Below are positions 7,668 to 64,000 of a DNA stretch of 64,000 nt, one piece after another (position 1 is the stretch's first letter; the number at the start of each line of letters is the position of its first letter). Under the pieces are notes generated by a model. The model was not told the origin of the DNA. It worked only from the letters and a program-made list of their open reading frames with translations, and ran no database searches. A program made the position numbers and the translations under genes. The DNA is taken from positions 1 through 64,000 of the forward strand of contig NZ_CANMDS010000002.1 in the NCBI RefSeq assembly GCF_947496725.1, given 5' to 3'. This DNA is from an uncultured Dokdonia sp. GTDB taxonomy: Bacteria > Bacteroidota > Bacteroidia > Flavobacteriales > Flavobacteriaceae.

Positions 7668-7683
7668 CGCTTTCGCGAAAGCG
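7668..7683. repeat. Dispersed palindrome CGCTTTCGCGAAAGCG
   Basis: Exact 16-bp copy lying in the spacer between tRNA-Gly and tRNA-Leu, so it is probably transcribed within the tRNA precursor. Confidence 0.9.
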
Positions 7684-7726
7684 TATAGAAAATATACCAA
7701 TTTTATTTTCACACAAGTGAGAATAT

Positions 7727-7810
7727 GCTCGAGTGGTGGAATTGGTAGACACGTTGGACTTAAAATCCAATGTCCATTAGGACGTACGGGTTCAAGTCCC
7801 GTCTCGAGTA
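7727..7810 (+). tRNA. tRNA-Leu(TAA)
   Basis: This is an 84-nt class II tRNA with a long variable arm (TGTCC ATTA GGACG region). The acceptor arms are GCTCGAG and CTCGAGT, giving a G1-U72 wobble end pair, with discriminator A. The anticodon stem TTGGA/TCCAA encloses the loop CTTAAAA, so the anticodon is TAA at 7761-7763. The T loop TTCAAGT is canonical and CCA is not encoded. It is probably cotranscribed with tRNA-Gly. Confidence 0.95.
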
Positions 7811-7811
7811 C

Positions 7812-7840
7812 AAAAGGCTTCCATCTAGGAAGCCTTTTTT
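7812..7840 (+). terminator. Rho-independent terminator of the tRNA unit
   Basis: The stem AAAAGGCTTCC / GGAAGCCTTTT has a 5-nt loop and runs into a T tract, two nucleotides after the tRNA-Leu 3' end. Confidence 0.85.
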
Positions 7841-7866
7841 ATTTAAATTAATTAGAAATCAACACT

Positions 7867-10582: not shown

Positions 10583-10598
10583 CGCTTTCGCGAAAGCG
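10583..10598. repeat. Dispersed palindrome CGCTTTCGCGAAAGCG
   Basis: Exact 16-bp copy about 100 nt upstream of mutS in the mutS/SusC divergent spacer. Confidence 0.9.
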
Positions 10599-15233: not shown

Positions 15234-15256
15234 TATAAAGTTATTGAGCAATTCTA

Positions 15257-15284
15257 AAACACCCTACGTATAGGGTGTTTTTTT
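15257..15284 (+). terminator. Terminator of the SusC/SusD operon
   Basis: The perfect 10-bp stem AAACACCCTA / TAGGGTGTTT with a CGTA loop is followed by a T tract, 24 nt after the SusD stop. Confidence 0.9.
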
Positions 15285-15286
15285 AT

Positions 15287-15300
15287 GCTTTCGCGAAAGC
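15287..15300. repeat. Dispersed palindrome core GCTTTCGCGAAAGC
   Basis: Exact 14-bp core between the two convergent terminators, preceded by T rather than C. Confidence 0.9.
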
Positions 15301-15314
15301 GTAATTACCCACAA

Positions 15315-15351
15315 AAAAAAGCGCATTCAGCTTATTGCCGAATGCGCTTTT
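15315..15351 (-). terminator. Terminator of the RND efflux operon
   Basis: The stem AAAAGCGCATTC / GAATGCGCTTTT has a partly paired AGC..GCC top. On the minus strand it ends in a long T tract, 21 nt after the RND permease stop. Confidence 0.85.
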
Positions 15352-15372
15352 CTACACTAACTAACTAATCAC

Positions 15373-18921: not shown

Positions 18922-20091
18922 TTAGTATGTTAAGATTTTTACTGGCTGGTTATCTTTTACAGATCTCGCACCTTCTACAATGATTTTATCTCCTACTTCT
19001 AGACCAGATAGTACTTCTATGTTAGGTCCTTGTGATTTACCTGTAGTGATGATTTTTTGCTGTGCTACCATTTCGTCCGCTTTCGCGAAAGCGGTATACA
19101 CAAATTGCTCACCAGCTGCATTTTCATTAATCACATTGAGAGGGATTAAAATTGCACTTTCTGCCGTGTAGTCGTTGATAGAAAGTCTCGCTGTAAGATT
19201 AGGTTTTACCTTCCCATCTTTATTAGGAACGTCTACTTCTATCGCAAAACTTCTGTTTGATGGTTTGATATAATTACCCGTCTGGCGCACGGTAGTCTCT
19301 ACAGACTCTCCTAGTACTGGAAACTCTACTTTTACCTTTTTACCAGCCGTTACTGTAGGTAGGTAGCTTTCTGGAATCTCTGCCGCTACATACATATTAT
19401 CAAGATTTACGATTCTGAATAATGCCATACCTGGAGCAACCACTGTACCTTGGTCTGTAATAACCTCATCTATTACTCCAGAAAATGGAGCTGTAACCGT
19501 TGTTTTACCCAGCTGACTTCTAATCTGGCTCACCATATTTTGTGATGACTCATATTGTGTTTTTGCCTGTAGGTATTGTATTTCTGACCCTATTTTTTGA
19601 TCCCAAAGTCTTTGCTGGCGCTCAAAAGTAGTCTTTGCAAGTGCTAGTTGAGATTCCATTTGTGCTACTTGACTGCTTAGACCACCGTCATCTATACGAG
19701 CCAGTGTTTGCCCTTTACGCACGCGCTGTCCTTCTTTTACAACTACACGAGATAAGGTACCTTGATACTCTGGGTAGATAAGTACATTTTGCTTAGTCTC
19801 TACATTACCTTGCACCTCTATAAAGTGATTAAACAAGGTGTCTTTTACCGTCATTGTGGTGATAAGAACCTCTTTTTTCTCTCTAGGATTCTTTTCTTCT
19901 AGCACCTTTTCTATTTGTGCTAGTTGATCATTAGTAGCCGTGATCTCTTCCTTAAGTGCTTTTTGTTTTGCCTGTAACTCCTCTACAGATCCAGACTCTA
20001 GAAGGGCCTCTACAGATTTTCCGTTACTGTCTCCACCGCAAGAAGCTAGCGCGATACTTAAGATGGCAAGTGTGATATATTTTTTCATCAT
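18922..20091 (-). CDS. RND efflux periplasmic adaptor (membrane fusion protein)
   Basis: The 389-residue lipoprotein has signal LAILSIALASC. It bridges the RND permease and the TolC-like channel. After a short coiled coil (residues ~30-65) come the barrel-sandwich halves, with GTLSRVVVKEGQRVRKGQTLARID and VTAPFSGVIDEVITDQGTVV flanking an alpha-helical hairpin, then beta-barrel and membrane-proximal domains (GLEVGDKIIVEGARSVKDNQPV). A copy of the dispersed palindrome lies in frame and encodes AFAKA within YTAFAKADEM. It is placed between the TolC-like and permease genes, which fixes its role. Confidence 0.95.
   Translation of the reverse strand: MMKKYITLAILSIALASCGGDSNGKSVEALLESGSVEELQAKQKALKEEITATNDQLAQIEKVLEEKNPREKKEVLITTMTVKDTLFNHFIEVQGNVETKQNVLIYPEYQGTLSRVVVKEGQRVRKGQTLARIDDGGLSSQVAQMESQLALAKTTFERQQRLWDQKIGSEIQYLQAKTQYESSQNMVSQIRSQLGKTTVTAPFSGVIDEVITDQGTVVAPGMALFRIVNLDNMYVAAEIPESYLPTVTAGKKVKVEFPVLGESVETTVRQTGNYIKPSNRSFAIEVDVPNKDGKVKPNLTARLSINDYTAESAILIPLNVINENAAGEQFVYTAFAKADEMVAQQKIITTGKSQGPNIEVLSGLEVGDKIIVEGARSVKDNQPVKILTY
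19078..19093. repeat. Dispersed palindrome inside the adaptor gene
   Basis: Exact 16-bp copy read in frame as AFAKA in the membrane-proximal domain of the RND adaptor. Confidence 0.9.
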
Positions 20092-22174: not shown

Positions 22175-22190
22175 CGCTTTCGCGAAAGCG
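22175..22190. repeat. Dispersed palindrome CGCTTTCGCGAAAGCG
   Basis: Exact copy in the divergent spacer between the TetR operon and the polyprenyl synthase gene. Confidence 0.9.
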
Positions 22191-23311: not shown

Positions 23312-24739
23312 ATGTTACTCGTGAAGTACTTTCTATTTATTTTATTTGCCGCAATGAGCTTGTCTAGCTGTGCTCAAACTACCTGGCATAGTGAGCAACT
23401 TGCTATAGATGACTCGTTACAGATTGCCGTCATACAGATACCAGAAAATAGAAAGCTATCACAAACAGAGGTTTTCTCACTGGGTAATAATTCATACACG
23501 CTTACCCTACATAGCACAGACTCCATATACAGCACAACTCACACCCTCAAGCTTAATAACAACACCTATAAAGCTTACATAACATCCCTACCGCTTATTA
23601 CTATAAACGTCTCGCAAGAAATTGTAAATGAGCCTAAACGTATGAGTCGCATTGGGTATGCAGATGAGGAAATCACATTTACAAGTTATGCCGGTATTGA
23701 GCTACGAGGTAGCAGTTCGCTTGTTTTTAAGAAGAAAACCTATGACCTCAACTTTTACAAAGACAGTCTAGGTTTTGAAAACCAAGACTACAAGCTGGCT
23801 GGAATGCGCTCTGATGATGACTGGATTCTGGATGGACTTTATAACGAGCCCTTACGTATGCGCTCTTTTATCTCTCTTAATCTCTGGAATGATATCTACA
23901 CACCACATTATCTAGATAAAGAACCTAAGGCAAAGGCTGGTGCGACCGCGGCTTATAGTGAGGTGTTTATAAATGGTCGCTACAAAGGTCTTTTCTTACT
24001 TCAGGAGCAGGTAGATCGCAAGCTAGTTAAGATAAAGAAAAACAAAGGCGATACCATACGGGGTGAGATCTTTCAAGGGGCACGCTACCTAGGTGCCAGT
24101 TCCTTTGACTCTATACCTCCAGCAAAGAACTTTTTAGCCAGCTGGGGTGGTTATGATATAAAATACCCATCGCCTACTAATGCGCCTTGGGACAATGTAT
24201 ATCCTTTTACAGACTTTGTAGTTAATAGTGATGATGACGCTTTCGCGAAAGCGATCTCAAAACAATTTGTACTTGACAATGCTATAGATTACTTCTTATA
24301 TATAAATGCCCTACGTGCACCAGATAATCTAGGAAAAAACCTCTACCTAATACGTTATGATGCTGGAGCGCCCTACTTTTATGCTCCTTGGGATCTGGAC
24401 GGAACACTAGGCACCATCTACAGCGGAAAGCGTATTAATACCACAAATGACTTTTTAAGCAACGGACTATTAAGAAGGCTTATCGCCACAGATGCAGATG
24501 ATTTTATTGCACGTTTTCAAGCGCGATGGCTCACCTTACGACAAGGAGTTTTAAGCGAAGAGCAGTTGCTCAAAAAACAAATGGACACTTATAACTCACT
24601 AAAAGAACAGAAGGTTTACGAGAGAGAAGCGCTCATATGGGACACGTTTATTTATGAGGAAGAAGGCATTACATATATGCAAGAATGGACAAAAAAACGC
24701 CTTGCCTTTTTGGATAAATACATTAGTGATTTAAAATAA
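23312..24739 (+). CDS. CotH-like kinase-family lipoprotein
   Basis: The product has 475 residues with a lipoprotein signal (FILFAAMSLSSC). CotH-family landmarks are visible: ELRGSSSLVFKKKTYDLNFY, the basic and acidic patch DDDWILDGLYNEPLRMRSFISLNLW, EVFINGRYKGLFLLQEQVDRKLVKI (the family's nucleotide-binding Lys region), and YFYAPWDLDGTLG with the likely catalytic Asp pair. CotH proteins are atypical secreted protein kinases first known from Bacillus spore coats; bacterial substrates outside spores are unknown. A dispersed palindrome lies in frame at about residues 310-314 (AFAKA). It converges on the HPPK-fusion gene with a 15-nt gap. Confidence 0.88.
   Translation: MLLVKYFLFILFAAMSLSSCAQTTWHSEQLAIDDSLQIAVIQIPENRKLSQTEVFSLGNNSYTLTLHSTDSIYSTTHTLKLNNNTYKAYITSLPLITINVSQEIVNEPKRMSRIGYADEEITFTSYAGIELRGSSSLVFKKKTYDLNFYKDSLGFENQDYKLAGMRSDDDWILDGLYNEPLRMRSFISLNLWNDIYTPHYLDKEPKAKAGATAAYSEVFINGRYKGLFLLQEQVDRKLVKIKKNKGDTIRGEIFQGARYLGASSFDSIPPAKNFLASWGGYDIKYPSPTNAPWDNVYPFTDFVVNSDDDAFAKAISKQFVLDNAIDYFLYINALRAPDNLGKNLYLIRYDAGAPYFYAPWDLDGTLGTIYSGKRINTTNDFLSNGLLRRLIATDADDFIARFQARWLTLRQGVLSEEQLLKKQMDTYNSLKEQKVYEREALIWDTFIYEEEGITYMQEWTKKRLAFLDKYISDLK
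24238..24253. repeat. Dispersed palindrome inside the CotH-like gene
   Basis: Exact 16-bp copy read in frame as AFAKA (DDAFAKAIS). Confidence 0.9.
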
Positions 24740-32164: not shown

Positions 32165-32178
32165 GCTTTCGCGAAAGC
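32165..32178. repeat. Dispersed palindrome core GCTTTCGCGAAAGC
   Basis: Exact 14-bp core seven nucleotides beyond the patatin stop codon, in the spacer before the downstream gene. Confidence 0.9.
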
Positions 32179-33160: not shown

Positions 33161-33176
33161 CGCTTTCGCGAAAGCG
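33161..33176. repeat. Dispersed palindrome CGCTTTCGCGAAAGCG
   Basis: Exact copy ending one base before the stop codon of the outer-membrane barrel gene (minus strand). Confidence 0.9.
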
Positions 33177-33177: not shown

Positions 33178-35958
33178 CTAAAAGAACATTATCCCACCAT
33201 TATCTGTCTCGCCTTTTTTACCTAGCGTGTTAAACTTCCAGCTCAAACTAAGCATAAAATATTGTTGCAATACCGTACTCTGTACGTCTTGTATAAAGTT
33301 TGCATTTGCCGTACGACGGGCGTTTGTATTTTGATCAAGCACGTCATACACCTTAAGTGTAGCTGTTGCTCTTTCTTTAGCAAAAGAGTATGCTAGTGTC
33401 GAGTTCCAGAACAAAGCACTTTGCTGAAAGTCACTTGCAATATTAGGGTTATAGTTATAGTTTATCTCATTACGCCATTCCCAGTTTTTTGGCACAAAAA
33501 GAGCCGTACTCAAGCGCACTGTGTGCGAGATAAACTCTTGATCATCAAATGCATCTAGACCAAACTCTGTTTTTGAAAATGAGATGTTATAACTAGGGCG
33601 CACCTCAAAGAGGTCTTTCCAAGTAAAAGTCACATTTACTCTTGGGGTAAGTGATCTTGTTTTACTTGCATACTTCACATCATTATTGAAGTTTACATTA
33701 CGGCCAAAGTTCCCGTAAATACCTCCACCATATTTTATGGTTCTTAGTGAATCTATCTTGAGCGTTTTATTATAACCACCACCGGCGCCTACGTTATAAT
33801 TACCATCTACATTTTCATATGTAGTTGTACGCACAAGGTTTTCATCTATCGTAGTTTTATTTACCACGGCATCATTTGTAACACTACCATTACCATTTAA
33901 GTACCAACCACCACCTTTCTGGAAGTCAAAATTATTAAACCCTCCATAAAAGTTATAGACATTAGAAGGTGATAAATCTGGATTACCCACAGTGATATTA
34001 AGTGGGTCTGACACATCTACAAAAGGATTGAGCTGTTGCACATCTGGCGGACTATTACTCTTACTCACACTGGCATATAATGATGCCTTTGGACTAAAAC
34101 GATAGTTGATATAAGAGTCTAGTTCTAGCGCTTCAAAATTTTCCTTTACGTTAAGTTCTGGACGCAGGTTATCTGTATTTTCTAGTGTTCTAAAGACATA
34201 ACCTGCTCCAAAGTTTATATTAAACTTTTCTGTGTTATAATTAAGTCCCAGCTTAGGTGTTGTGCGCATATTGCGCCCCTCAAAGTCTGTGCTTAACACC
34301 TCATTAAGTGTGCTGTACTGCTGGGTATTTTCATCAAAATCAAAAGTGGTTCTTGATCGCTTTCGGCTATCATCACGATGCCCAAAATCTGCATCTAGAA
34401 ATAACTTTTTTGCAATAAGTGGTATGCGGTATGTAAAGTTAAGATTGTATCCATCCAGCTTAGTCTCACCATCTGTAAACTGGTTGCGCTCTATAAGCTC
34501 TGGAGCATCTCCTAGTATGGCAGTATTAGAGACTATAAAATCTTCACTCTCTTGTCTGTTTATTTCGTTCTGAAGACGAGCACGCACGTAGGCACCTTTG
34601 TCACCCCACTTTTTTGTAATACTCAAAGTGTTTTCAAAATTCTTCCCTTGATCTTTTATAAAGTTTGCATTATCAGACTGGTTTATAAGATCCCCATTTT
34701 CATCAAGAGACTCTTCATCACGAGTATAGCGCGTCTCACTTTTCGCATAAGAAAACTTAGGGCGTATGTTTATAAGAATTGTAGAATCCTTCTTAATATT
34801 TATAGTTGCATTTGCACTATGATTATCAGAGTTTGAGTCACTTCTTGAGTTGCTATTTGTAAAAAAACGACGATCTGGCAAGATGTTCTCACGCTCGATA
34901 CGTGTCTCGTCAAAAGAGTTTGCTGCAGAGTAGAAGTAATCCATACTCGCATCAAAACCTTTTGCATACTCATCTGTATAATTTGTCCCGATGCTGCGAC
35001 TGTTTGTAATACCCTGGCCACCACCAAAACTGCGCCCGTCTATACCAAAACTTCCATTACCGTTAAAATAGACACTTCTCCCACCGCCAAACATCTTGCG
35101 TATCTCCCCAAAGCTAAAACCAGCCTCGTTTATATTATTACCTCCAGCAAGTACACTTATGCGCCTGTCATTATCAAAAGCATTTACAATACCGGCATAC
35201 TCAAAGCGCTCATCTGTACCAGCACCAGCAGCTACACGGCCAAAAACACCCTTGTTCTTCTCTTCAGAAATGGTCAGATTTATGGTTTTATTCTCTTGGT
35301 CACCATCTTCACCAGCAAAGGCTTCATCATCTGTTTTTGTATCTACCACTTGTATCTTTTCTACCATCTCCTTAGTAAGGTTACGTGTAGCTACCGTAGG
35401 GTCATCGCCAAAAAAGGGTTTCCCATTTACAAGTATCTGGTTAACTTCCTTACCATTTACTAAGATTTTACCATCTTCATCTACCTCAACACCTGGCAGC
35501 TCCTTGAGAAGGTCCTCAATATTTGCATCCTTTTTAGTTTTGAAAGAGGATACGTTAAACTCTAAAGTATCTTTTTTTACGGTAATAGGGGCCCTACTTT
35601 TTACCACAACCTCTCCCAGTGTGTTAGTCGCAAGTCCCACTTCTATAACACCTAAAGAAATATCACCCGCACTAAGGTCTACTTGCTTGCTATAATTTTC
35701 ATACCCTAAAAAAGATATATTAACTCGAGCATCCTTTTCTTGGGCTCTCCCTTCTAAGGTAAAAGCTCCATTTTGATTTGTGATGGTGTACGTGATGAGC
35801 GTACTATCTTTTACGGTTTCAAGAAAAACGGTAGCAGCCTCAAGTGGCTCTTTTGATTCCTTGTCTGTAAGTGTACCTGTAACTGAGAAGTTTTGCGCTT
35901 TCGCGAAAGCTGAAACTAATAGAAGTCCAACTAAGATTACTAAATGACGTAATTGCAT
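33178..35958 (-). CDS. TonB-receptor-like outer-membrane beta-barrel protein
   Basis: The 926-residue protein starts with a signal peptide (VILVGLLLVSAFAKAQ), and the cleavage region AFAKA is itself encoded by the dispersed palindrome. A CarboxypepD_reg-like domain (VTGTLTDKESKEPLEAATVFLE, residues ~25-110) precedes a plug-like domain with LLKELPGVEVDEDGKILVNGK and ILVNGKPFFGDDPTVATRNL. The remainder is an Asn/Thr/Ser-rich barrel ending in MFF. Such proteins resemble TonB-dependent receptors but often lack a SusD partner, as here. The substrate is unknown. It precedes the patatin gene with a 75-nt gap and may share its transcript. Confidence 0.9.
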   Translation of the reverse strand: MQLRHLVILVGLLLVSAFAKAQNFSVTGTLTDKESKEPLEAATVFLETVKDSTLITYTITNQNGAFTLEGRAQEKDARVNISFLGYENYSKQVDLSAGDISLGVIEVGLATNTLGEVVVKSRAPITVKKDTLEFNVSSFKTKKDANIEDLLKELPGVEVDEDGKILVNGKEVNQILVNGKPFFGDDPTVATRNLTKEMVEKIQVVDTKTDDEAFAGEDGDQENKTINLTISEEKNKGVFGRVAAGAGTDERFEYAGIVNAFDNDRRISVLAGGNNINEAGFSFGEIRKMFGGGRSVYFNGNGSFGIDGRSFGGGQGITNSRSIGTNYTDEYAKGFDASMDYFYSAANSFDETRIERENILPDRRFFTNSNSRSDSNSDNHSANATINIKKDSTILINIRPKFSYAKSETRYTRDEESLDENGDLINQSDNANFIKDQGKNFENTLSITKKWGDKGAYVRARLQNEINRQESEDFIVSNTAILGDAPELIERNQFTDGETKLDGYNLNFTYRIPLIAKKLFLDADFGHRDDSRKRSRTTFDFDENTQQYSTLNEVLSTDFEGRNMRTTPKLGLNYNTEKFNINFGAGYVFRTLENTDNLRPELNVKENFEALELDSYINYRFSPKASLYASVSKSNSPPDVQQLNPFVDVSDPLNITVGNPDLSPSNVYNFYGGFNNFDFQKGGGWYLNGNGSVTNDAVVNKTTIDENLVRTTTYENVDGNYNVGAGGGYNKTLKIDSLRTIKYGGGIYGNFGRNVNFNNDVKYASKTRSLTPRVNVTFTWKDLFEVRPSYNISFSKTEFGLDAFDDQEFISHTVRLSTALFVPKNWEWRNEINYNYNPNIASDFQQSALFWNSTLAYSFAKERATATLKVYDVLDQNTNARRTANANFIQDVQSTVLQQYFMLSLSWKFNTLGKKGETDNGGIMFF
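35897..35910. repeat. Dispersed palindrome inside a signal peptide
   Basis: Exact 14-bp core read in frame as AFAKA, directly at the predicted signal-peptidase site (AKA before QNF) of the outer-membrane barrel protein. Confidence 0.9.
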
Positions 35959-36589: not shown

Positions 36590-36605
36590 CGCTTTCCCGA
36601 AAGCG
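36590..36605. repeat. Variant dispersed palindrome CGCTTTCCCGAAAGCG
   Basis: One base differs from the exact 16-mer, at the centre (CCCG for CGCG). It sits between the small unknown gene and the der terminator. Confidence 0.8.
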
Positions 36606-40292: not shown

Positions 40293-40306
40293 GCTTTCGC
40301 GAAAGC
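40293..40306. repeat. Dispersed palindrome core GCTTTCGCGAAAGC
   Basis: Exact 14-bp core flanked by A/T, in the divergent spacer between the DUF2797 and GH3-like genes. Confidence 0.9.
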
Positions 40307-45060: not shown

Positions 45061-45082
45061 TTACGCTTTCGCGAAAGCGTAA
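45061..45082. repeat. Longest copy of the dispersed palindrome, between clpP and clpX
   Basis: The symmetry extends to TTACGC...GCGTAA around the common core, giving a 22-bp perfect palindrome. It lies inside the clpP-clpX spacer and would form a stable hairpin in a joint transcript. Confidence 0.9.
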
Positions 45083-47623: not shown

Positions 47624-47637
47624 GCTTTCGCGAAAGC
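47624..47637. repeat. Dispersed palindrome core GCTTTCGCGAAAGC
   Basis: Exact 14-bp core just upstream of the holin-like gene, next to the terminator at 47652. Confidence 0.9.
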
Positions 47638-50701: not shown

Positions 50702-51469
50702 CTATAAAAAATTTATCACTTCTTTATAAAAATCTTTAGGATTTTCTGCGTGAAGCCAGTGACCAGCGTTAGAAATTGTCTTGATTTGCGCTTTCGCGAA
50801 AGCGTTATAAATCCCATTTTTATCTTCCTCGAGGATGTAATTAGATTTATCTCCTCTTAGGAATAAAGTAGCATCGCTATAAGTTGCGCCCAGCGGTAAC
50901 GGCTTCCCTATTTCTTCTATATTTTGAATAAGAGCCGCTAGGTTGATACGTAGACCTAAAACTCCTTTTTCTACCCAATAAAGATTTTTAAGTAAAAACA
51001 TTCTCGTCCCTAAGTCTGATATATAATTTGCTAGAAATTGATCTGCTCCAGACCTACTAGACATTGCTTCGCTATTATTTGAAAGCGCCGTGAGGCCTTC
51101 TAAAATAGTCTGGTGATGCTGGGGATATTCTTTAACTCCTATATCTGCAATGATGAGTTTATCTACCATAGCTGGATACGTAACCGCAAAGAGCATTGCT
51201 GTTTTACCTCCCATAGAGTGTCCTAATAAGTGTATCTTATCAAGTCCATTTTCTACACAATAGTCTTTAAGATCTTCTACGAGCAACTCATAACTAAAAG
51301 CGTCACTATGAAAACTACGGCCGTGATTGCGCTGATCTATAAGATGTACTTGATAACCATCTGCCGCAAATTGTTTTGCAAGCGTTTTCCAGTTATCACC
51401 CATTCCTAAAAACCCGTGTAAAATTACCAGTGGCTTGCCTTCTCCTATAACATTAGAGTGCACAATCAT
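50702..51469 (-). CDS. Alpha/beta-fold hydrolase (YbfF-like esterase)
   Basis: The 255-residue cytoplasmic protein has HGFLGMGDNWKTLA near the oxyanion site, DQRNHGRSFHS, the nucleophile elbow GHSMGGKTA with Ser near 99, and the catalytic His in AGHWLHAENP near 238. These match the YbfF esterase group. A dispersed palindrome is read in frame as AFAKA just before the His region; alignment with relatives from memory shows no extra residues there, so the palindrome appears substituted in rather than inserted. The stop of pdxJ and the start of this gene abut, so the two are cotranscribed. Confidence 0.92.
   Translation of the reverse strand: MIVHSNVIGEGKPLVILHGFLGMGDNWKTLAKQFAADGYQVHLIDQRNHGRSFHSDAFSYELLVEDLKDYCVENGLDKIHLLGHSMGGKTAMLFAVTYPAMVDKLIIADIGVKEYPQHHQTILEGLTALSNNSEAMSSRSGADQFLANYISDLGTRMFLLKNLYWVEKGVLGLRINLAALIQNIEEIGKPLPLGATYSDATLFLRGDKSNYILEEDKNGIYNAFAKAQIKTISNAGHWLHAENPKDFYKEVINFL
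50789..50804. repeat. Dispersed palindrome inside the alpha/beta hydrolase gene
   Basis: Exact 16-bp copy read in frame as AFAKA (YNAFAKAQIK), about 10 residues before the catalytic His. Confidence 0.9.
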
Positions 51470-52918: not shown

Positions 52919-52924
52919 TTAACT

Positions 52925-53867: not shown

Positions 53868-53883
53868 CGCTTTCGCGAAAGCG
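53868..53883. repeat. Dispersed palindrome CGCTTTCGCGAAAGCG
   Basis: Exact copy in the spacer between nadK and the promoter of the PorG-like/bamA operon. Confidence 0.9.
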
Positions 53884-53947: not shown

Positions 53948-53964
53948 CAAACTTTTACGGCTAT

Positions 53965-54639: not shown

Positions 54640-54646
54640 ATATATA

Positions 54647-55387: not shown

Positions 55388-58001
55388 TACAGCTACTTTT
55401 TCAAAAGTAACAGGCAGATGGATTTTTATTTTAGCCTTATTATGTAGCACCTTAGTAAACGCTCAGAGAGACATACCACTCGATCCAGATATCAAGTATG
55501 AAATTGCAGATATAAAGGTTACCGGGACTTCTACCTATAATGAAAATACCGTAATTGTATTTACAGGCTTAAGAGTAGGAGAGCGCATATCATTACCTGG
55601 TACAAAAGTTTCTAATGTAATTAAGAAACTATGGTCCCTAGAACTCTTTTCTGACATTAATTTATATGTTACTGCGGTAAATGGTGACAAAGTAGATTTA
55701 CAACTCGATATTAAAGAAGTTCCAGAACTTAACGAAGTACGCTTTAAAGGAATAAAGCAGAAAAAAGGATCTAGCTTTATTAAAGACAACGGTCTTAACA
55801 AAGGAGCAAAGGTTACTGAAAACCTAGAAACGACCACTACAAATTATATTGAGAACTCGTACAAGAAAAAAGGGTTCTTAAACTCTAAAGTATTTATAAA
55901 TACGGTACCTGCAGCAGACACTATTGGCAAAAATAAAGTCAATATGATTGTAAATGTTGATAAAGGTGAGCGCGTAAAGGTTAAGGAAATCAACTTTAAT
56001 GGACGTGAGAAACTTCAAGAAGGTAAACTTCTTGGATCTATGAAGAATACAAAGGAGAAAAAAATCTGGCGTCTTTGGAAAAGATCAAAGTTTATTAAAG
56101 CAGATTATGAAGAGGATAAAGTAGCCATCATAAACAAATACAAAGAAAAAGGTTATCGTGATGCAAGAGTAGTTTCTGACTCTATTATCAAGAACAATGA
56201 CCAAAGTATTACGGTTGAAATTAATATAGAAGAAGGACGTAGATACTACATAGGTGATATAGACTTTATAGGAAACTCTGTCTACACAGACGAGCAGCTA
56301 AGTAGACAATTAGGTCTTAAAAAAGGAGATGTTTATAACGGCGTTTTACTTCAAGAACGTATCAAAGATGATACTGATCCTGATGCTGATAACATCGCAA
56401 ACCTTTATCAAAACAGTGGTTACTTATTCTCAAACGTAAACCCTGTAGAAACAAGTGTACAAAACGACACGATAAACTTCGAAGTACGTATTACTGAAGG
56501 TAAACTTGCATACTTTAACAAAGTAACTGTAAAGGGTAACGACAAGACTAAGGATAAAGTTATCTATAGAGAACTACTCACTAAGCCTGGACAGCGTTAC
56601 AGCAAAAAAGCAGTAGTAGGTACAATACGTGAGCTAGGTCAACTAGGCTTCTTTGATGCGCAACAGCTTACTCCTAATTTCAATAATTTTGACCCAGTAG
56701 GTGGAACTGTAGATCTAGAGTATAACGTGGTTGAGCAAGGAGCAAGCCAGATAGAACTTCAAGGAGGTTTTGGTGGTGGAGGTTTTGTGGGAACTTTAGG
56801 ACTCTCATTTAACAACTTCTCTATACAGAACATATTTAATAAAGATGCCTACAACCCATTACCTATGGGTGATGGCCAGAAGTTTTCTTTGAGAGCACAA
56901 GCGAGTCAATTTTTCCAAACATACAGTGCATCACTCACAGACCCTTGGTTTGGAGGGAAACAACCAGTACAGTTTTCAACATCATTCTCGCACACGATAC
57001 AATATTTATTTACAGGTATTACAACTGGAAGTGCTAGTGATCGTGTAGATAGAAACAGTAAGTTCTTGATTACGGGAGGTTCTGTAGGGTTATCTAAGCG
57101 TCTTAAATGGCCAGATAGAAACTTTAGCTTATCACACGCTATAAGTTTCCAGCACTTTGATTTACAAAACTACAACACAGGTCTATTTACCTTTGGAGAT
57201 GGAGCTTCAGAAAACTTAGCCTATACTATAGGTCTAAGTAGACGTGAGCTTTATGGAGGATTAATCTTCCCTACAAGTGGATCTGACATAAGTCTAACAG
57301 CAAAATTAACCTTACCATACTCTGCTTGGAATGGTGTTGATTATAAGGGTTTAGCAATAGAACGTGATGAAGCTATCGCAGATGGTCTTAGCAGTACAGG
57401 TAAAACTGTAGGAGAGATAGACCAAGAACGTTTTAACTGGCTAGAATACTATAAAGTAAAGTTTACTGGTAAGTGGTATACACCACTTGTAGGTAAGTTT
57501 GTATTACAATCTGGTGTAGAGTTTGGATGGCTAGGTGCTTACAATCAAGATAGAGGTGTACCACCTTTTGAGCGTTTCTTCTTAGGAGGTGATGGTCTAG
57601 GAGGCTTCTCACTTGATGGTAGAGAGATTGTAAGACTTAGAGGATACCCTAACCAGTCTGTAACTCCTATAGATAGAGGAGCTATTTTACAGAGCACAGG
57701 GCAGGCTAATGATGGTGCTACTATTTACAATAAATTTAGTCTTGAACTACGTTATCCTATTACCTTTAGCCCGCAAGCGAGTATCTATGCATTAACTTTT
57801 GCAGAAGCAGGATCATCTTATGACAATTTTAGAGATTATAACCCGTTTCAATTGAGTAGATCTGCTGGGGCAGGAATTCGTATATTTATGCCGGCCTTTG
57901 GATTATTAGGTCTGGATTTTGGATATGGATTTGACCCAATTCCTGGTACAACAGGAGCAAATGGATGGGAAACCCACTTCATTATCGGACAGCAGTTTTA
58001 A
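55371..58001 (+). CDS. bamA: BamA outer-membrane protein assembly factor
   Basis: BamA inserts barrels into the outer membrane. The frame is open upstream of uppS's end. An ATG at 55320 would give a 49-residue leader and a 68-nt overlap; the GTG at 55371 gives a standard signal peptide (GRWIFILALLCSTLVNAQ) and a 17-nt overlap, so it is preferred, with moderate certainty. From there the protein has 876 residues: five POTRA domains (~40-430, e.g. VKVKEINFNGREKLQEGKL, RRYYIGDIDFIGNSVYTDEQ) and a C-terminal barrel with RGY(P) in RLRGYPNQSV and end FIIGQQF. Linker inserts make it longer than E. coli BamA. Confidence 0.95.
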   Translation: MNRLNSTATFSKVTGRWIFILALLCSTLVNAQRDIPLDPDIKYEIADIKVTGTSTYNENTVIVFTGLRVGERISLPGTKVSNVIKKLWSLELFSDINLYVTAVNGDKVDLQLDIKEVPELNEVRFKGIKQKKGSSFIKDNGLNKGAKVTENLETTTTNYIENSYKKKGFLNSKVFINTVPAADTIGKNKVNMIVNVDKGERVKVKEINFNGREKLQEGKLLGSMKNTKEKKIWRLWKRSKFIKADYEEDKVAIINKYKEKGYRDARVVSDSIIKNNDQSITVEINIEEGRRYYIGDIDFIGNSVYTDEQLSRQLGLKKGDVYNGVLLQERIKDDTDPDADNIANLYQNSGYLFSNVNPVETSVQNDTINFEVRITEGKLAYFNKVTVKGNDKTKDKVIYRELLTKPGQRYSKKAVVGTIRELGQLGFFDAQQLTPNFNNFDPVGGTVDLEYNVVEQGASQIELQGGFGGGGFVGTLGLSFNNFSIQNIFNKDAYNPLPMGDGQKFSLRAQASQFFQTYSASLTDPWFGGKQPVQFSTSFSHTIQYLFTGITTGSASDRVDRNSKFLITGGSVGLSKRLKWPDRNFSLSHAISFQHFDLQNYNTGLFTFGDGASENLAYTIGLSRRELYGGLIFPTSGSDISLTAKLTLPYSAWNGVDYKGLAIERDEAIADGLSSTGKTVGEIDQERFNWLEYYKVKFTGKWYTPLVGKFVLQSGVEFGWLGAYNQDRGVPPFERFFLGGDGLGGFSLDGREIVRLRGYPNQSVTPIDRGAILQSTGQANDGATIYNKFSLELRYPITFSPQASIYALTFAEAGSSYDNFRDYNPFQLSRSAGAGIRIFMPAFGLLGLDFGYGFDPIPGTTGANGWETHFIIGQQF

Positions 58002-58038
58002 TTTTTGGCACGATTATTTCTAATGCAACTCTGAAACT

Positions 58039-59043
58039 ATGAAGACAAACGTTTTTATCTTACTAATAGCAACTTTCCTTATAAGCCTTAGCGCTCAAGG
58101 ACAACGAGCAAGTGGTGTACGTATAGGTTATATTGATATGGAATACATTCTCGAGAATGTTCGAGAATATCAAGAAGCCTCATCACAACTGGACGAAAAA
58201 GTTGCAAGATGGAAAGGAGAGATAGAAACAAAGCTCGAAGAAGTATCTGCTATGAAAGAACAGCTAGATAATGAACGAGCACTGTTAACAAAAGAACTTA
58301 TAGAAGAGCGTGATGAAGAAATCACCTTTGAAAGAGATCAGGTTTTAGAATATCAACAAAAGCGTTTTGGACCAGGAGGAGATCTAGCGATTCAAAGAAG
58401 ACAACTCGTAGAACCTGTACAAGATCAAGTTTTTAATGCAGTACAAGAAATATCTGCAGCTAAGAAATTTGATTTAGTTTTTGACAAATCTTCAGATTTA
58501 ATGATGCTATATACTGCAGACCGTCTTAATATAAGCGATCAAGTTTTAAGAAGTATAACTCGTGCTGCAAAGCGCAACCAGATAAACAGTAAGAAAGAAG
58601 AAAGAGATTTTGATATAGACGAAGCAAAAACTGTAGAGCAAGACAAAGCAACACAAGAAAGACAACGAGCTATAGAAGCCAAAAAATCTGAGCGTGAAGC
58701 AGCACTAGAAGCCCGCAATAAAGAGCGTAATGCTCAAAAGGCAGAACGTCAAGCAGCGTTTGACGAGAGGAGAAAGAAACTTCTTGAAGAGCGTAAACGT
58801 AAGAAAGACTCTATAACTGCCGTACGTGAAGCAAAAGCAGCAAGCAGAAATTCTGGAGCTCCTACTTTAGGTAAAAAACCAGGTGATGCACTCTCTGCAA
58901 AAGAAGCAGCACTAGAAGCTAGAAAAAGAAGAAAGGACTCTATAATTGCCGTACGTAAAGCAAAAAGAGACTCAATTATACAAGCTAGAAAAAGAAAAGC
59001 AAATCCTTCACAAGCAGATGGCGAAGATGGAGGAGGTATTTAA
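58039..59043 (+). CDS. OmpH/Skp-like periplasmic chaperone with charged C-terminal tail
   Basis: Residues 1-170 are a Skp/OmpH chaperone: signal peptide (FILLIATFLISLSAQG), then RIGYIDMEYILENVREYQEA, a long coiled coil, and KKFDLVFDKSSDLMMLYTADRLNISDQVL. Skp holds unfolded barrel proteins for BamA. Unlike ordinary Skp (about 160-170 residues) this protein continues for ~165 very basic and acidic residues, with the element KDSI(T/I)AVR(E/K)AK present twice and a related RDSIIQARKRK third. The tail is predicted helical or disordered. It lies between bamA and a normal-length OmpH paralogue. Confidence 0.93.
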   Translation: MKTNVFILLIATFLISLSAQGQRASGVRIGYIDMEYILENVREYQEASSQLDEKVARWKGEIETKLEEVSAMKEQLDNERALLTKELIEERDEEITFERDQVLEYQQKRFGPGGDLAIQRRQLVEPVQDQVFNAVQEISAAKKFDLVFDKSSDLMMLYTADRLNISDQVLRSITRAAKRNQINSKKEERDFDIDEAKTVEQDKATQERQRAIEAKKSEREAALEARNKERNAQKAERQAAFDERRKKLLEERKRKKDSITAVREAKAASRNSGAPTLGKKPGDALSAKEAALEARKRRKDSIIAVRKAKRDSIIQARKRKANPSQADGEDGGGI

Positions 59044-59082
59044 CCTTTATTAAATTTTACACTTAACTCAAATTAGATTACA

Positions 59083-59595
59083 ATGAAACAGTTTACAAAA
59101 GTATTAGCAGCAATTGCACTTATCGTAGGAATGAGCAGCGCTATGCAAGCACAAAGCAAAGTTGCACACATTAACTCGCAGTCACTTGTAGAAGCTATGC
59201 CTTCATATAAAACGGCAATGTCAGAGCTAGAAAAACTACAGAAGTCATATGATGCAGATATCTCAGGAATGGGTAACGAGCTTCAAAAAACACTAGAGCG
59301 TTACAACCGTGAGGCAGAAACGCAAACAGATGAGGAGAACCAAAGACGTATGAGTGAAGTACAAGATACTCGTTCTAACATCGTAAAGTACCAACAGACT
59401 GCAATGCAAAAACTTGAGGTAAAGCAACAAGAACTTATCAAGCCTATCTTAGAAGAGGCAAGACTTGCTATCCAAAAAGCAGCACGTGCAAAAGGTTATG
59501 AATTTGTACTAGACTCTACACCAGGAGCAGGAGGAGTTCTTATGGCAGATGGTTACGATCTTATGGCAGATGCAAAAGCTGCTCTAGGTATATAA
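59083..59595 (+). CDS. OmpH/Skp-like periplasmic chaperone
   Basis: The 170-residue protein has a normal Skp build: signal peptide (VLAAIALIVGMSSAMQAQ), KVAHINSQSLVEAMPSYKTA, a central coiled coil of the jellyfish arms (~45-120), and RAKGYEFVLDSTPGAGGVLMADGYDLM. It is the last gene of the PorG-like/uppS/bamA/ompH operon, followed by a terminator, and should deliver outer-membrane clients to BamA. Confidence 0.95.
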   Translation: MKQFTKVLAAIALIVGMSSAMQAQSKVAHINSQSLVEAMPSYKTAMSELEKLQKSYDADISGMGNELQKTLERYNREAETQTDEENQRRMSEVQDTRSNIVKYQQTAMQKLEVKQQELIKPILEEARLAIQKAARAKGYEFVLDSTPGAGGVLMADGYDLMADAKAALGI

Positions 59596-59644
59596 ATCTA
59601 AAGCTTGATAAGCACTCACTGAGTACACTATCAAATAGTATATA

Positions 59645-59674
59645 AAAACTGCCCTTTCTAGGGCAGTTTTTTTT
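59645..59674 (+). terminator. Terminator of the bamA/ompH operon
   Basis: The stem AAAACTGCCC / GGGCAGTTTT has a 6-nt loop and is followed by a T-rich tract, immediately before murI. Confidence 0.9.
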
Positions 59675-59685
59675 ATTTTAGAACA

Positions 59686-60492
59686 ATGAGTAACAAGAAT
59701 GTTATAGGAGTTTTTGACAGTGGTATAGGCGGCACCTCCATCTGGAAAGAGATAGTCGCTAGACTACCCGGAGAAGACACCATATATCTTGCAGATAGCA
59801 TAAATGCACCATACGGCGCAAAGTCTAAAGAAGACATTATTGCTCTCTCTGTAAAAAACACAGAAAAACTCATTAATCTAGGCGCCAAAATCATTGTAGT
59901 AGCTTGTAACACGGCAACTACAAATGCTATAGACTATCTTAGAGAACACTACAATATTCCGTTTATAGGTATAGAACCTGCCATTAAACCTGCAGCTGTA
60001 CAATCTCAGAGCAAGGCAATAGGTATACTCGCTACAAAGGGCACACTTAACAGTGCGCTTTTTCAAACCACCTCAGAGAGATGGACACAAGGCGTAGACG
60101 TTATTGAGGTCATTGGAGAAGGTCTAGTACCTCTTATAGAGCAAGGGGATCTAGAGAATCTTGAGTTATACAACTTATTAGAATCCTATATACAGCCTAT
60201 GGTAGAAAAAAACATAGACTACCTCGTGCTAGGTTGCAGCCATTACCCCTACCTCATACCATTATTAAAAAAGATGCTGCCTCCTCACGTAGCAATTATA
60301 GACTCTGGGCTAGCTGTAGCTAGACAGACAGAGGCAGTTTTAAAAGAATTAAACAATCTTTCGGGGGATGCATCAAGTGATCACTACATTTATACTAATG
60401 GAGACGTGAAGGTGCTTAAAAAGGTGTTGTCACGCTTTCGCGAAAGCGTAAAACCCACCACTACCATTACCATATCACACAAAGATTTTTAG
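59686..60492 (+). CDS. murI: Glutamate racemase
   Basis: MurI makes D-glutamate for peptidoglycan. The 268-residue protein has GVFDSGIGGTSIWKEI at the N-terminus, the first catalytic Cys in VVACNTATTNA and the second in LVLGCSHYPYL, and IDSGLAVARQT near the end. A dispersed palindrome lies in frame near residues 250-254, read as RFRES, in the C-terminal segment. The gene converges on the response-regulator gene with a 6-nt gap. Confidence 0.97.
   Translation: MSNKNVIGVFDSGIGGTSIWKEIVARLPGEDTIYLADSINAPYGAKSKEDIIALSVKNTEKLINLGAKIIVVACNTATTNAIDYLREHYNIPFIGIEPAIKPAAVQSQSKAIGILATKGTLNSALFQTTSERWTQGVDVIEVIGEGLVPLIEQGDLENLELYNLLESYIQPMVEKNIDYLVLGCSHYPYLIPLLKKMLPPHVAIIDSGLAVARQTEAVLKELNNLSGDASSDHYIYTNGDVKVLKKVLSRFRESVKPTTTITISHKDF
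60433..60448. repeat. Dispersed palindrome inside murI
   Basis: Exact 16-bp copy, read as RFRES (a different frame from the AFAKA copies) near the murI 3' end. Confidence 0.9.
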
Positions 60493-60498
60493 AAACGT

Positions 60499-61233
60499 TT
60501 ATTGAAAGTAAGCAAGCAGGTTAGACTTCTGACTAGCCGAAACAAGCACTTCTTTACCCGTACTCATAACTACACTCCCACCCTTTCCTTTTTTGTAACC
60601 AGTAATCTCATTTACATTTACAAGAAAAGACTTGTGCACGCGAGCAAAACCGAAATCTGTAAGAGCCACTTCAAAAAACTTAAGCGTTTTACTTACTAGC
60701 TTCTTATCGCCAGATTTCATAAAAATCTGAGTATAATTATCATCTGCCTGGCAGTATAAAATATCTTTTGCCGGGAGTACCTCAAAACCATCTTGTACAG
60801 GTATAGTTATCTTACCCTGCTTATCCATATTGTGTGTGGTAAGCACCTTGTTTTCTAGTGCGTTTTCTTTAGATTTTATCTCCGTCACATAGTCTACTGC
60901 TTTTATAAGCTCATCTATAGAAACAGGTTTAAGTAAGTAATATGAGGCGTGTGTATTAAGCGCATCCATCGCATACTGATTATATGCCGTGACAAAGACT
61001 GTCTCAAATGTACGATCGCCCACTTGCTCAAGCAGGTCAAAGGCATTGCCCTTAGGCATCTCAACATCTAAAAAGACAAGATCAAGTTTATGATTGCGTA
61101 TTAAGACAAGGGCTTCATCTACATTTTCGGCCTCGCCTACAATAGTTACTTTTGGGCAGTATTTTGTAAGGTAGTTGCGCAGTATCTCTCTACTTGTCTC
61201 TTCGTCTTCTACTATGATTGTTTTGAGCTCCAT
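60499..61233 (-). CDS. LytTR-family response regulator
   Basis: The 244-residue protein has an N-terminal receiver: acidic pocket VEDEE at 8-12, phosphoacceptor Asp56 in LVFLDVEMPKG, and conserved Lys in YYLLKPVS. The C-terminal LytTR DNA-binding domain spans ~140-244 (ILYCQADDNYTQIFMKSG, FARVHKSFLVNVNEI). LytTR regulators bind direct repeats at target promoters. The gene begins 2 nt after the kinase gene ends, so they form a two-component pair. Target genes are unknown. Confidence 0.95.
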   Translation of the reverse strand: MELKTIIVEDEETSREILRNYLTKYCPKVTIVGEAENVDEALVLIRNHKLDLVFLDVEMPKGNAFDLLEQVGDRTFETVFVTAYNQYAMDALNTHASYYLLKPVSIDELIKAVDYVTEIKSKENALENKVLTTHNMDKQGKITIPVQDGFEVLPAKDILYCQADDNYTQIFMKSGDKKLVSKTLKFFEVALTDFGFARVHKSFLVNVNEITGYKKGKGGSVVMSTGKEVLVSASQKSNLLAYFQ

Positions 61234-61235
61234 AA

Positions 61236-63440
61236 TTATGCTTTTTTAATAAAGAGTTGTACTTGTGTTCCCTCTCCGTTTTCAAAAATATCTGATACCG
61301 CAACACTTATTCTATCGCCATACATCTCGTTAAGGATTGCAATACGCTTTTTGATATTACCCATTCCTTTAGATTTCTGTTTCTTTTGATTTTCGGTTTT
61401 CAACTCCTTGCTTCGCTTGCGTCCCACTCCATCATCAGACACGGTTATTACCGCCGTTTCTTCATCTTTTTGAGCAAAGGTTATTTGTAGTTTTCCTTTT
61501 TCTTCTTTGTACCTCATACCGTGCCATACCGCGTTTTCTACATAAGGCTGGAGCAACATAGGAGGTATCATAAATGCATCTACATCGAGCTCTTTATCTA
61601 CTACTATCTCGTAGTCAAATCTATTTTTGAACCTAAAATGTTCTAGCATTGTATAGCGCTTTATGAGATCTATCTCGCTAGAGAGTGGTATAAAATCCTC
61701 CTCACTATTTTCTAAAACGGCACGCATTAGTATAGAGAAATCAGACAAGTATCTATTTGCAGTGCGCTCATCATTAGTAGCTATAAAGCTATTAACAGAA
61801 TTAAGGGCATTAAAGATAAAATGCGGATTCATCTGTGAGCGTAGACTTTTAAGAGCAAGTACATTATTTGCATACTGCTGCTTTTTACTACTACGGTACA
61901 TTGCAAAAGCTGTAAGCATAAGCAAGGCTGTCACTAGGATTAATGACCCTATAATCACCTTTTGTCTAGTATCACGTGCCTTTACAAGCTCTTGCTCTTG
62001 AAAAGCTAGCTGATATCTACTCTCATTGAGTTGTCTATCTTTTTCTAAGCTTATGATTCGGTTTTGTTGTTCTGTTATATCTTTTGCAAATCTTGTAGCC
62101 TGCGAAATCTCTTGTTCCTTACGATTGTAACTAAGATCTACCACCTCCTTATAAGCCTCGTAAGCTTCTTTAAACTTATCTATGTCACCTTTATCTCTAT
62201 ATACCTCAGAGAGCCTTCTACGTGCATTAGTTTCTACCGTGAGGTCTTCTTTGCGCTTTGCTTCTTCAATACTTTTATTAAGAAATGTTATAGACTCGTC
62301 GTATTTATTTTGAGCAGCCAGTGCAAATCCTATCTTATAATTTTGCTTTTGAGTGGTAATCACATCATCATTAGAAATAGAGTCTGGTGCAACCACACTC
62401 AAGTCTTCTATAGCAGATTTACGTAACTCGATCTCTGCGTCATAAGACTTGTTTCTACTATAATAATCTGCAATGTTTGTTTTTGCTCTTACAGAAGATT
62501 CTGTTTTCTCAAGACTAGATAACTGCGCCGCTTTATTATAGTTTGATGCTGCTTCTTGTTGCGCTCCTTGCTGGTCATAAGCATCACCTATTTTTGTACG
62601 TACGCGTGCAGCTTCTGAGACTTTATTAAGCTCTGAAACCGTACGCTCTACAGCCTCATAATTTGTAATAGAAGTCACATAGTCACCAGTAGCAACATAG
62701 GCGTCTCCCAGACCTTCTTTTACTGTAACAAGCTGTTGGGGTGTAAGCTTTTTGCTTTCTAACCTTTTGTAGAGACGTATACTCTCTTGATAACTCTTGT
62801 TATTATAATATGCCTTTGCAAGAGCAATCTCTACCGCAGTGCTGGGGGTATTCTTTATACTAAGCTTATAGTTTGTAATGGCAAGATCATACTGTTTCCA
62901 GAAACTATAAATATCACCTAGTAACTTAAAACTCTCTGCTCGCTCTTGTGATGACAAGCCCTCTATGGCAAGTGCTTTTGCAACTTGATCTACGCCAGCA
63001 GCGGCATCTCTTCTATATACAGATTGTGCCTCGCTGAGATATGTTTTATAGCTTACTAACTCCTCTTCTACATCTTGCATTTGCTCAAGCGCTATTGCTT
63101 CTTCAAGCGGCCTTACCTCTACCCTAATGCGCTGCTTGTCTTTTACTGTATAATAAACGGTTTCAAAATCTTCACTTTTAACCACAAGCTCATCACCTAC
63201 TTTTGCCTCTATACGAAACTCACCATCGCGGCCAGTCTTTGTGTAAGCACCTCCAGTAACCTCTACATTTACCTTATTTACAGGCTTCATAGTTTCGGTA
63301 TCTAGCACACTACCTCTTAAAATGAAGATCTCGTTTGTGCTACGACTTACAGCTCTATTTTTTTGCTGTGCTTGCATTGCTGGTGACAGCAAGGCAATAC
63401 AGAGTATGCATAATATGTAAATTCTAGTTCTCATTGACAT
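61236..63440 (-). CDS. LytS/His_kinase-type sensor kinase with CarboxypepD_reg and TPR domains
   Basis: The 734-residue protein has a signal peptide (IYILCILCIALLSPAMQAQ) and a periplasmic CarboxypepD_reg-like domain (ILRGSVLDTETMKPVNKVNVEV, ~40-115). A series of TPR repeats follows (~150-450, e.g. ESFKLLGDIYSFWKQYDLAITNY), then a coiled coil, one transmembrane helix (VIIGSLILVTALLMLTAFAMY, ~495-515) and a cytoplasmic His_kinase domain with LRSQMNPHFIFNALNS (phospho-His near 540) and an HATPase with PPMLLQPYVENAVWHG. The ATG at 63440 is used; 63434 is an alternative. Its partner regulator is directly downstream. Confidence 0.93.
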   Translation of the reverse strand: MSMRTRIYILCILCIALLSPAMQAQQKNRAVSRSTNEIFILRGSVLDTETMKPVNKVNVEVTGGAYTKTGRDGEFRIEAKVGDELVVKSEDFETVYYTVKDKQRIRVEVRPLEEAIALEQMQDVEEELVSYKTYLSEAQSVYRRDAAAGVDQVAKALAIEGLSSQERAESFKLLGDIYSFWKQYDLAITNYKLSIKNTPSTAVEIALAKAYYNNKSYQESIRLYKRLESKKLTPQQLVTVKEGLGDAYVATGDYVTSITNYEAVERTVSELNKVSEAARVRTKIGDAYDQQGAQQEAASNYNKAAQLSSLEKTESSVRAKTNIADYYSRNKSYDAEIELRKSAIEDLSVVAPDSISNDDVITTQKQNYKIGFALAAQNKYDESITFLNKSIEEAKRKEDLTVETNARRRLSEVYRDKGDIDKFKEAYEAYKEVVDLSYNRKEQEISQATRFAKDITEQQNRIISLEKDRQLNESRYQLAFQEQELVKARDTRQKVIIGSLILVTALLMLTAFAMYRSSKKQQYANNVLALKSLRSQMNPHFIFNALNSVNSFIATNDERTANRYLSDFSILMRAVLENSEEDFIPLSSEIDLIKRYTMLEHFRFKNRFDYEIVVDKELDVDAFMIPPMLLQPYVENAVWHGMRYKEEKGKLQITFAQKDEETAVITVSDDGVGRKRSKELKTENQKKQKSKGMGNIKKRIAILNEMYGDRISVAVSDIFENGEGTQVQLFIKKA

Positions 63441-63687
63441 CAAACATACACTATAAATCTAGCATCCTAAAATCACAAGGCCTCGCAACTTGCTTATAAA
63501 TGGCATTTTACACTCATATTTTACCACTTTACTCAAATCACTGGTGCGTTCCCTCACCCGTAGTGCTAGTTTACTCAATAGCGATAATTTCTAGACAAAG
63601 TCCTTGCTACTTTTGACTTGTAACTAATTCAAAAAGAGACATTAGACATAACTCTCAACATTTTTATTCATCTCAAAAAACAAACTT

Positions 63688-64000
63688 ATGAAAACGCTAT
63701 TGCTACTTGCTGCTACCCTGGGAACACTCACAAACAGTATCGCAGGAGAACTTAAAGTGGAGAATTACGCTTTCGCGAAAGCGGAAACCTCATCACTACA
63801 CATCTCTACACCAAAACCTGACGCAAATACCATAAAAGTCGCTTTGCTGCTGGACACCTCAAATAGTATGGATGGTCTTATAGACCAGGCAAGGGCTCAA
63901 CTCTGGGAACTTGTAAACGAGCTCGCACTTGCAAAATGCGGCAATGACTCACAACCAGATCTTAAAATTGCCCTTTATGAATACGGTAATGATCGCCTTA
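63688..64000 (+). CDS. Secreted VWA-domain protein, truncated by window end
   Basis: The first 104 residues are visible. A signal peptide (LLLLAATLGTLTNSIAG) is followed by a short linker in which the dispersed palindrome encodes AFAKA at residues 28-32. A von Willebrand A domain then begins: VALLLDTSNSMDGLIDQARAQLWELVNEL holds the MIDAS motif DxSxS for metal-dependent adhesion. An octamer TACTTTTG at 63608-63615 could be its -7 element. The rest of the protein, and so its class, is outside the window. Confidence 0.85.
   Translation, partial: MKTLLLLAATLGTLTNSIAGELKVENYAFAKAETSSLHISTPKPDANTIKVALLLDTSNSMDGLIDQARAQLWELVNELALAKCGNDSQPDLKIALYEYGNDRL
63768..63783. repeat. Dispersed palindrome inside the VWA-protein gene
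   Basis: Exact 16-bp copy read in frame as AFAKA just after the predicted signal peptide. Confidence 0.9.

Follow-up and report, generated by a model that had tools for sequence, protein, structure and literature searches.

Chi words, which AddAB/RecBCD recognizes during end processing, are short and directional. parS and Noc sites are palindromes of 14 to 16 bp with TTTC/GAAA half-sites and dimeric readers, and the known ones are far fewer than hundreds. Uptake signal sequences (USS) are conserved between orthologs and lie at tolerant places in coding sequence, in which they resemble the site described below. In the part of the source available, the USS of Haemophilus influenzae is a core with AT-rich flanks, and its relatively even distribution is the expected outcome of uptake bias or drive (PMC7811141). 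USS change gradually by point mutation, and few singly mismatched copies occur, according to the accessible portion of another report (PMC1939737). For the highly iterated palindromes (HIPs), the available part of Elhai (2015) invokes a methyltransferase coupled to mismatch repair and expects a cognate methyltransferase wherever the word is frequent, with one-base deviations gathered at the outer positions (PMC4390886). Here, we compare with these systems an exact 14-bp palindrome, GCTTTCGCGAAAGC, which occurs 16 times in a 64-kb window (the whole stretch analyzed, positions 1 to 64000 of contig C2 of genome G000, which we infer to be a Dokdonia) and 905 times in the 3.29-Mb genome.

The palindrome is a DNA site of two-fold symmetry that lies in G-poor sequence and is maintained site by site, and it is not a mobile repeat, a hairpin, or a terminator. 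Since hundreds of exact sites are preserved singly against mutation, every one of them must be needed, or driven, by some process. In some marine flavobacteria, exact, evenly spaced, and mutation-protected sites in such numbers point to a putative protein that recognizes the cell's own DNA or organizes its chromosome. The even spacing, the conservation at orthologous positions, and the G-poor flanks are additions to a preliminary description of the window, which had reported the 16 copies and judged them far above chance; both points were borne out. All 16 exact copies were found at the reported starts, together with one singly mismatched copy (Table 1). The reversed 14-mer, used as a control, occurred 0 times in the genome, and dinucleotide shuffles of the window (G+C content of 37 to 40% in 8-kb steps) gave a mean of 0.01 matches at up to one mismatch. 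Mismatch and flank figures for G000 were taken from 464 kb of the genome (contig C1, positions 1 to 400000, plus the window), which is 14% of the 3.29 Mb. In this sample, 136 exact copies were seen against 0.0007 expected under an order-2 Markov model, along with 5 one-mismatch copies (0.04 expected) and 14 two-mismatch copies. The genome-wide count is thus the opposite of one near the Markov expectation.

The sites are exact, each copy is retained at its own position, and decay is mostly by point mutation. Among the window sites with alignable flanks, 13 of 13 were kept in G007, 10 of 10 in G002, 15 of 16 in G016 (94.7% identity), 12 of 13 in G008 (11 of 12 under a stricter filter), 11 of 14 in G005 (81%), 7 of 10 in G012, 3 of 6 in G017 (74%), and 2 of 5 in G014 (74%). 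The preliminary description had set store by copies in relatives at nonhomologous places; the relatives have hundreds of copies, a few of them at aligned positions that are empty in the window (one in G005, one in G008, and two in G017). When C1 was compared with G005 from 165 to 312 kb (78% DNA identity), 24 of 31 sites were kept, 7 were lost, and 4 were present in G005 only. The best partners of the lost sites carried 1, 2, 1, 3, 1, 2, and 8 mismatches, six of them without an insertion or deletion (indel). Loss therefore consisted mostly of point changes (1 to 3 substitutions) at orthologous positions and not of insertion or deletion, the exceptions relative to G005 being two sites with 8 mismatches and an indel of 2 or 3 bp. 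Opposite one of the four sites found only in G005, the G000 sequence has 2 mismatches and differs in length by 1 base; opposite the other three it has 7 to 8 mismatches, in one case with a length difference of 4 bases. In more distant pairs, some lost sites left no recognizable remnant.

Many dispersed identical copies are what a mobile or repetitive extragenic palindromic (REP)-like short repeat would produce, and a REP-like element had been among the earlier candidates. For the sites compared, a mobile, REP-like, or miniature inverted-repeat transposable element (MITE)-like repeat was rejected, because the orthologous empty sites are mostly of the same length and differ by 1 to 3 substitutions and not by the presence or absence of an inserted unit. 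In addition, the flanks differ from copy to copy, and the copies stand apart, with a minimum gap of 522 bp in C1 and 197 bp in G016. We regard this explanation as extremely improbable.

Over six relatives, the identity of the core was 0.963 for coding sites and 0.949 for intergenic ones, and that of the four adjoining bases was 0.71 to 0.83; around intergenic sites, identity climbed again to 0.87 at 61 to 80 nt outward (aligned positions only in each case). The 43 one-mismatch copies examined (in which G000 and G016 overlap by descent) were distributed over folded positions 1 to 7 as 14, 6, 1, 1, 7, 10, and 4. The ratio of one-mismatch to exact copies was 11:118 in G016, 6:58 in G005, 12:34 in G011, 5:45 in G246, and 4:32 in G027, so the sharpness of the site varies among carriers. 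In G011 (positions 1 to 160000 of its contig C1), one-mismatch copies are much commoner than in G000 (5 to 136), as if site upkeep were weaker there.

The sites are also spread evenly along the chromosome. On the 400 kb of C1, on which the spacing figures for G000 rest, the gaps averaged 3,285 bp with a coefficient of variation (CV) of 0.50, compared with 0.99 for random placement, and only 6 gaps were shorter than 1 kb against 31 expected. The variance-to-mean ratio of counts per 10 kb was 0.22, where randomness gives 1.0 and the minimum among 20,000 random draws was 0.36. Gene-aware null models, keeping the share of coding and spacer copies or allowing one site per spacer, never gave a CV below 0.73 (0 of 5,000 draws each). 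On the longest stretches of other genomes, the CV was 0.52 in G027, 0.66 in G016, 0.70 in G005, and 0.72 in G011, and the fraction of 5,000 draws that were as low was 0, 0.0018, 0.0044, and 0.025, respectively. Genome-wide, the density is about one site per 3.6 kb. Around the complete chromosome of G016 it is approximately uniform: 21 stretches of 20 kb were sampled, and each had 2 to 7 sites, with skew of either sign and no visible origin-terminus gradient. A stretch of 51.5 kb in G005 (C1, about 100000 to 151500), which faces only about 9.8 kb of G000, has 6 sites, and the remaining 148.5 kb have 38; it looks like newer DNA that is still to fill up.

Such evenness and uniform density would also suit a chromosome-organizing or segregation site, already a candidate in the preliminary description and the main rival of the self-DNA uptake signal considered below. 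A lineage-specific dimeric nucleoid protein would then bind some 900 evenly spaced palindromes and bridge, loop, or mark the chromosome, and the loss of a site would cost slight fitness. The symmetry of the site agrees with this. A directional and a symmetric model were compared by expectation-maximization on 272 Dokdonia sites. In cross-validation, directionality improved the fit by only 6 log units of 27,000, and the idea that the palindrome conceals a directional element was rejected. The lack of an origin-terminus gradient in G016 speaks against an organizing role. Like parS and Noc sites, the Dokdonia site is a palindrome of 14 to 16 bp with TTTC/GAAA half-sites and, as its symmetry suggests, a dimeric DNA-binding protein as reader; it differs from them in core and spacing and in its hundreds of evenly spread copies.

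Outward on either side of the core, the consensus continues as G (0.90), T (0.62), A (0.76), and A (0.65). It had been noticed that the flanks often extend the symmetry, and indeed 11 of the 16 window copies reach CGCTTTCGCGAAAGCG. Beyond this, the flanks are symmetric, rich in A and C, and poor in G for about 20 nt per side, with G at about 0.05 to 0.08 and the scarcity fading by 40 nt. The flank is alike in G027, where the second base is A or G, and weakly so in G246. A dimeric protein that contacts a long stretch of flank weakly may have left this pattern.

The 10 intergenic and 6 coding copies of the earlier count were recovered from our open reading frame (ORF) lists. For the figures that follow, genes were called as longest ORFs, and no gene finder was used; in these calls, copy 1 was at first wrongly scored as coding and later dropped, and copy 16 was unclassified. 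With these crude calls, 52 of 120 C1 copies lie in spacers, which make up about 10% of the stretch, so that the density of copies in spacers is about seven times that in genes, and convergent spacers are about twice as dense as other spacers. In 36 tandem spacers, the copies lie nearer to the upstream stop (median, 46.5 nt) than to the downstream start (82 nt). This placement, together with the short stem into which the RNA of all four folded window copies (4 of 4) can form, is what might be expected of a transcription element, be it an intrinsic or bidirectional terminator, an RNA hairpin, or the operator of a global regulator. However, runs of five T occur within 14 nt outward in only 5 of 456 flanks, compared with 3.7% of background windows, and left and right flanks show no pairing covariation beyond the second base outside the core. 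Intrinsic terminators and RNA hairpins were therefore rejected, in agreement with the earlier remarks that most copies lack a T tract and that a terminator role does not fit. Moreover, 74 of 135 classified copies were scored as coding (one wrongly). We consider a transcription element highly improbable.

Within genes, the site was placed where the protein sequence tolerates change, as shown by its positions in early codons and at apparent signal-peptide ends. The frame reading AFAKA accounted for 45 coding copies and the other two frames for 15 and 14. Of 73 coding copies, 20 fell within the first 32 codons, where 8.1 would be expected; the AFAKA frame accounts for 15 of these early copies, and about half of the 20 directly follow a hydrophobic stretch, as at the end of a signal peptide (judged by eye).

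The word is patchily distributed and bound to lineages. All 17 other genomes of the genus that were searched carry 369 to 903 copies of the 14-mer, and copies per Mb differ about two-fold within the genus. When one genome from each of 42 other genera in the family was searched, G027 had 578 copies and the rest had 0 to 6; 39 genomes from other families of the order held 0, and among 295 genomes across the class G000 alone exceeded 4 copies. With the 12-base core, three of 199 genera of the family (own genus included, one genome each) were rich, namely, G000 (937 copies), G027 (586), and G246 (445); the next had 19, 19, 13, and 11, and 55 of the 199 had at least one copy. Among the 80 matches listed in a 16-mer scan, 32 were from Dokdonia, 31 from Nonlabens, 4 from strain BBFL7, and 13 from other organisms with one copy each, from which G027 is probably Nonlabens. 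A 35.7-kb Nonlabens phage had zero sites. On a MutS tree of 30 genomes, G246 (G+C content of 46%), G200, and Dokdonia grouped together (support, 100/99), and G027 stood elsewhere on a long branch. G200 has only 13 copies of the 12-base core, and the well-supported branches force at least two changes, i.e., two gains or one gain with losses. Of five Dokdonia sites alignable in G246 (64 to 71% identity), three, a small number, were exact, at three different places; one of the others had 3 mismatches and one had an indel. In the comparison with G027, a single Dokdonia site and a single G027 site could be aligned; neither was shared, and the two are too few to use.

Richness in only 3 of 199 genera, with the poor G200 grouped beside two carriers, would be odd for a core chromosome function, and the two-fold range of density inside the genus also weighs against one. 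We therefore hold a chromosome-organizing site to be possible yet doubtful. The same tentative standing, below that of the uptake signal, belongs to the idea that the site, comprising the 14-bp core and some 20 nt of G-poor flank per side, represents a new class of evenly spaced symmetric element, independent of methylation and uptake, whose putative dimeric reader would organize or mark the chromosome of a few flavobacterial genera.

Clusters of the word were also seen in G134, G143, G157, and G029, which belong to other genera in which it is otherwise nearly absent. By eye, the stretch in G134 resembles a copper/metal-resistance island with a CusA-like pump, a TolC-like protein, P-type ATPases, and a multicopper oxidase. 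Over 11 to 13 kb it is about 78% identical to sequence in G143 and G157, in which two copies spaced 933 bp from each other recur. It looks like DNA that departed from a word-bearing genus.

Like cyanobacterial HIP1 (GCGATCGC) and alternate HIPs, the Dokdonia word is palindromic, highly iterated, and limited to certain lineages; unlike HIP1, it is 14 to 16 bp long instead of 8, occurs about once per 3.6 kb, is strongly evenly spaced, and has extended G-poor flanks. Of the earlier comparison with HIP1, the picture of a genome-wide palindrome in genes and spacers, far above expectation and not an intrinsic terminator, has held, and TTCGCGAA outside the full site is likewise in excess (13 seen against 1.6 expected). 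The part that did not hold is the cognate enzyme. PF00145, the m5C methyltransferase family, was tested in 12 carriers; it was missing from G000, G003, G005, G008, G013, G014, and G246 and present in the other 5. PF01555 had no match above the cut-off in any of 12 Dokdonia genomes and one match each in G027 and G246, and PF02086 was absent from 5 of 14 carriers tested (G005, G007, G008, G027, and G246). As none of these three families, the only ones tested, is shared by all carriers tested, both membership in the HIP1 group and the earlier suggestion of a methylation site are unsupported. Fourteen bases also exceed the typical length of a methyltransferase site. A word made and kept by a methyltransferase coupled to mismatch repair is thus improbable. 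Chi shares with the Dokdonia word its frequent exact occurrence across the whole chromosome; the length and the symmetry of the latter are all that speaks against a Chi role.

Our best guess, offered tentatively and with slightly less than even confidence, is that the site is a self-DNA uptake signal similar to the USS of Pasteurellaceae and the DNA uptake sequence (DUS) of Neisseria. A putative competence receptor would prefer fragments bearing the site, and recombination of such fragments would restore mutated copies and slowly add new ones in tolerant sequence, such as spacers, signal peptides, and linkers. As one site per fragment would suffice, the sites would spread to about one per 3.3 kb. 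An uptake signal under molecular drive is suggested by the exactness, the loss by point mutation, the conservation between orthologs, the core with weaker flanks (alike in Dokdonia and G027), the evenness, the tolerant placement, the patchy lineage-bound presence with its at least two changes, and the two-fold density range. The absence of sites from the Nonlabens phage and the exchange of long tracts also count in its favor. Positions 15030 to 29423 of the window (14.4 kb) are 98% identical to G007, compared with 80 to 82% elsewhere in the parts compared (40000 to 59900 and the following piece), which shows recombination between two Dokdonia species. With USS and DUS, the site shares an exact, conserved core, weaker and extended A-rich flanks, few singly mismatched copies, turnover by point mutation, and even spacing. 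It differs in being palindromic and two-fold symmetric, in belonging to Bacteroidota, and in being rarer than USS, for which the part of the source available gives about one per 1 kb.

Several observations weigh against an uptake signal. To our knowledge, neither of the two uptake signals described so far is a palindrome. A receptor for the site was not found in this analysis, and comEC (PF03772) does not discriminate carriers, since all 20 genomes tested have it whether or not they bear the word. The evenness was not significant in G246 (longest stretch, CV of 0.84; fraction as low, 0.16), and the smallest gap in the longest stretch of G016 is merely 197 bp. Finally, the sites lost in G005 were not in more crowded places than those kept (10 lost and 34 kept, P = 0.73; nearest neighbor, P = 0.37), and the four gains on the C1 stretch were not near losses (P = 0.47). 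Thus, spacing-dependent turnover was undetected, and compensation of a lost site by a nearby gain, which had seemed possible in the window, was not borne out by the C1 stretch.

The copies in the window are listed in Table 1.

Table 1. Copies of the 14-base palindrome in the window (columns: copy, position, location with gene coordinates and strand, remark)
1	7669..7682	Between tRNA-Gly and tRNA-Leu genes	
2	10584..10597	Spacer, mutS (-) on one side and SusC-family gene (+) on the other	
3	15287..15300	Spacer, convergent genes	
4	19079..19092	Within HlyD-family gene (18922-20091, -)	
5	22176..22189	Spacer, divergent genes	
6	24239..24252	Within CotH-family gene (23312-24739, +)	Inexact in G005, G008, and G012 (last core bases changed)
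7	32165..32178	Spacer, tandem genes	
8	33162..33175	Spacer, tandem genes	
9	35897..35910	N-terminal part of outer-membrane barrel gene (33178-35958, -)	Reads AFAKA; position like a signal-peptide end
One mismatch	36591..36604		GCTTTCCCGAAAGC
10	40293..40306	Spacer, divergent genes	
11	45065..45078	Spacer, tandem genes	
12	47624..47637	Spacer, tandem genes	One substitution in G016
13	50790..50803	Within alpha/beta hydrolase gene (50702-51469, -)	
14	53869..53882	Spacer, tandem genes	
15	60434..60447	Near 3' end of Asp/Glu racemase-family gene (59686-60492, +)	
16	63769..63782	Within ORF running off the window (63688-, +)	Reads AFAKA

A second 14-base palindrome, CCGATAGCTATCGG, has 3 copies in the 464 kb of G000. 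Four of the 20 stretches in a survey of noncarriers were contigs of 1 to 2.5 kb and were excluded; in seven 20-kb stretches (G019, G023, G025, G030, G031, G034, and G059), no other palindromic 14-mer occurred more than twice. GTTCCACGTGGAAC occurs twice in 20 kb of G023 and resembles a parS site. In the literature searched, which is not all of the literature, neither the 14-mer nor the 12-base core was found in any paper. Searches for Dokdonia palindromes and for overrepresented palindromes in flavobacteria gave nothing relevant by title, and a search for DNA uptake sequences in Bacteroidetes yielded papers whose titles do not concern such a signal in this phylum.

If the site serves in uptake, Bacteroidota would have a palindromic signal; if it instead anchors the chromosome, it would be an organizer with unusually regular spacing. 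The contrast between carriers (Dokdonia and G246) and the near noncarrier G200 offers a comparison for finding the protein that reads it. In addition, the word is usable as a tag to trace DNA exported from carrier genera, such as metal-resistance islands.

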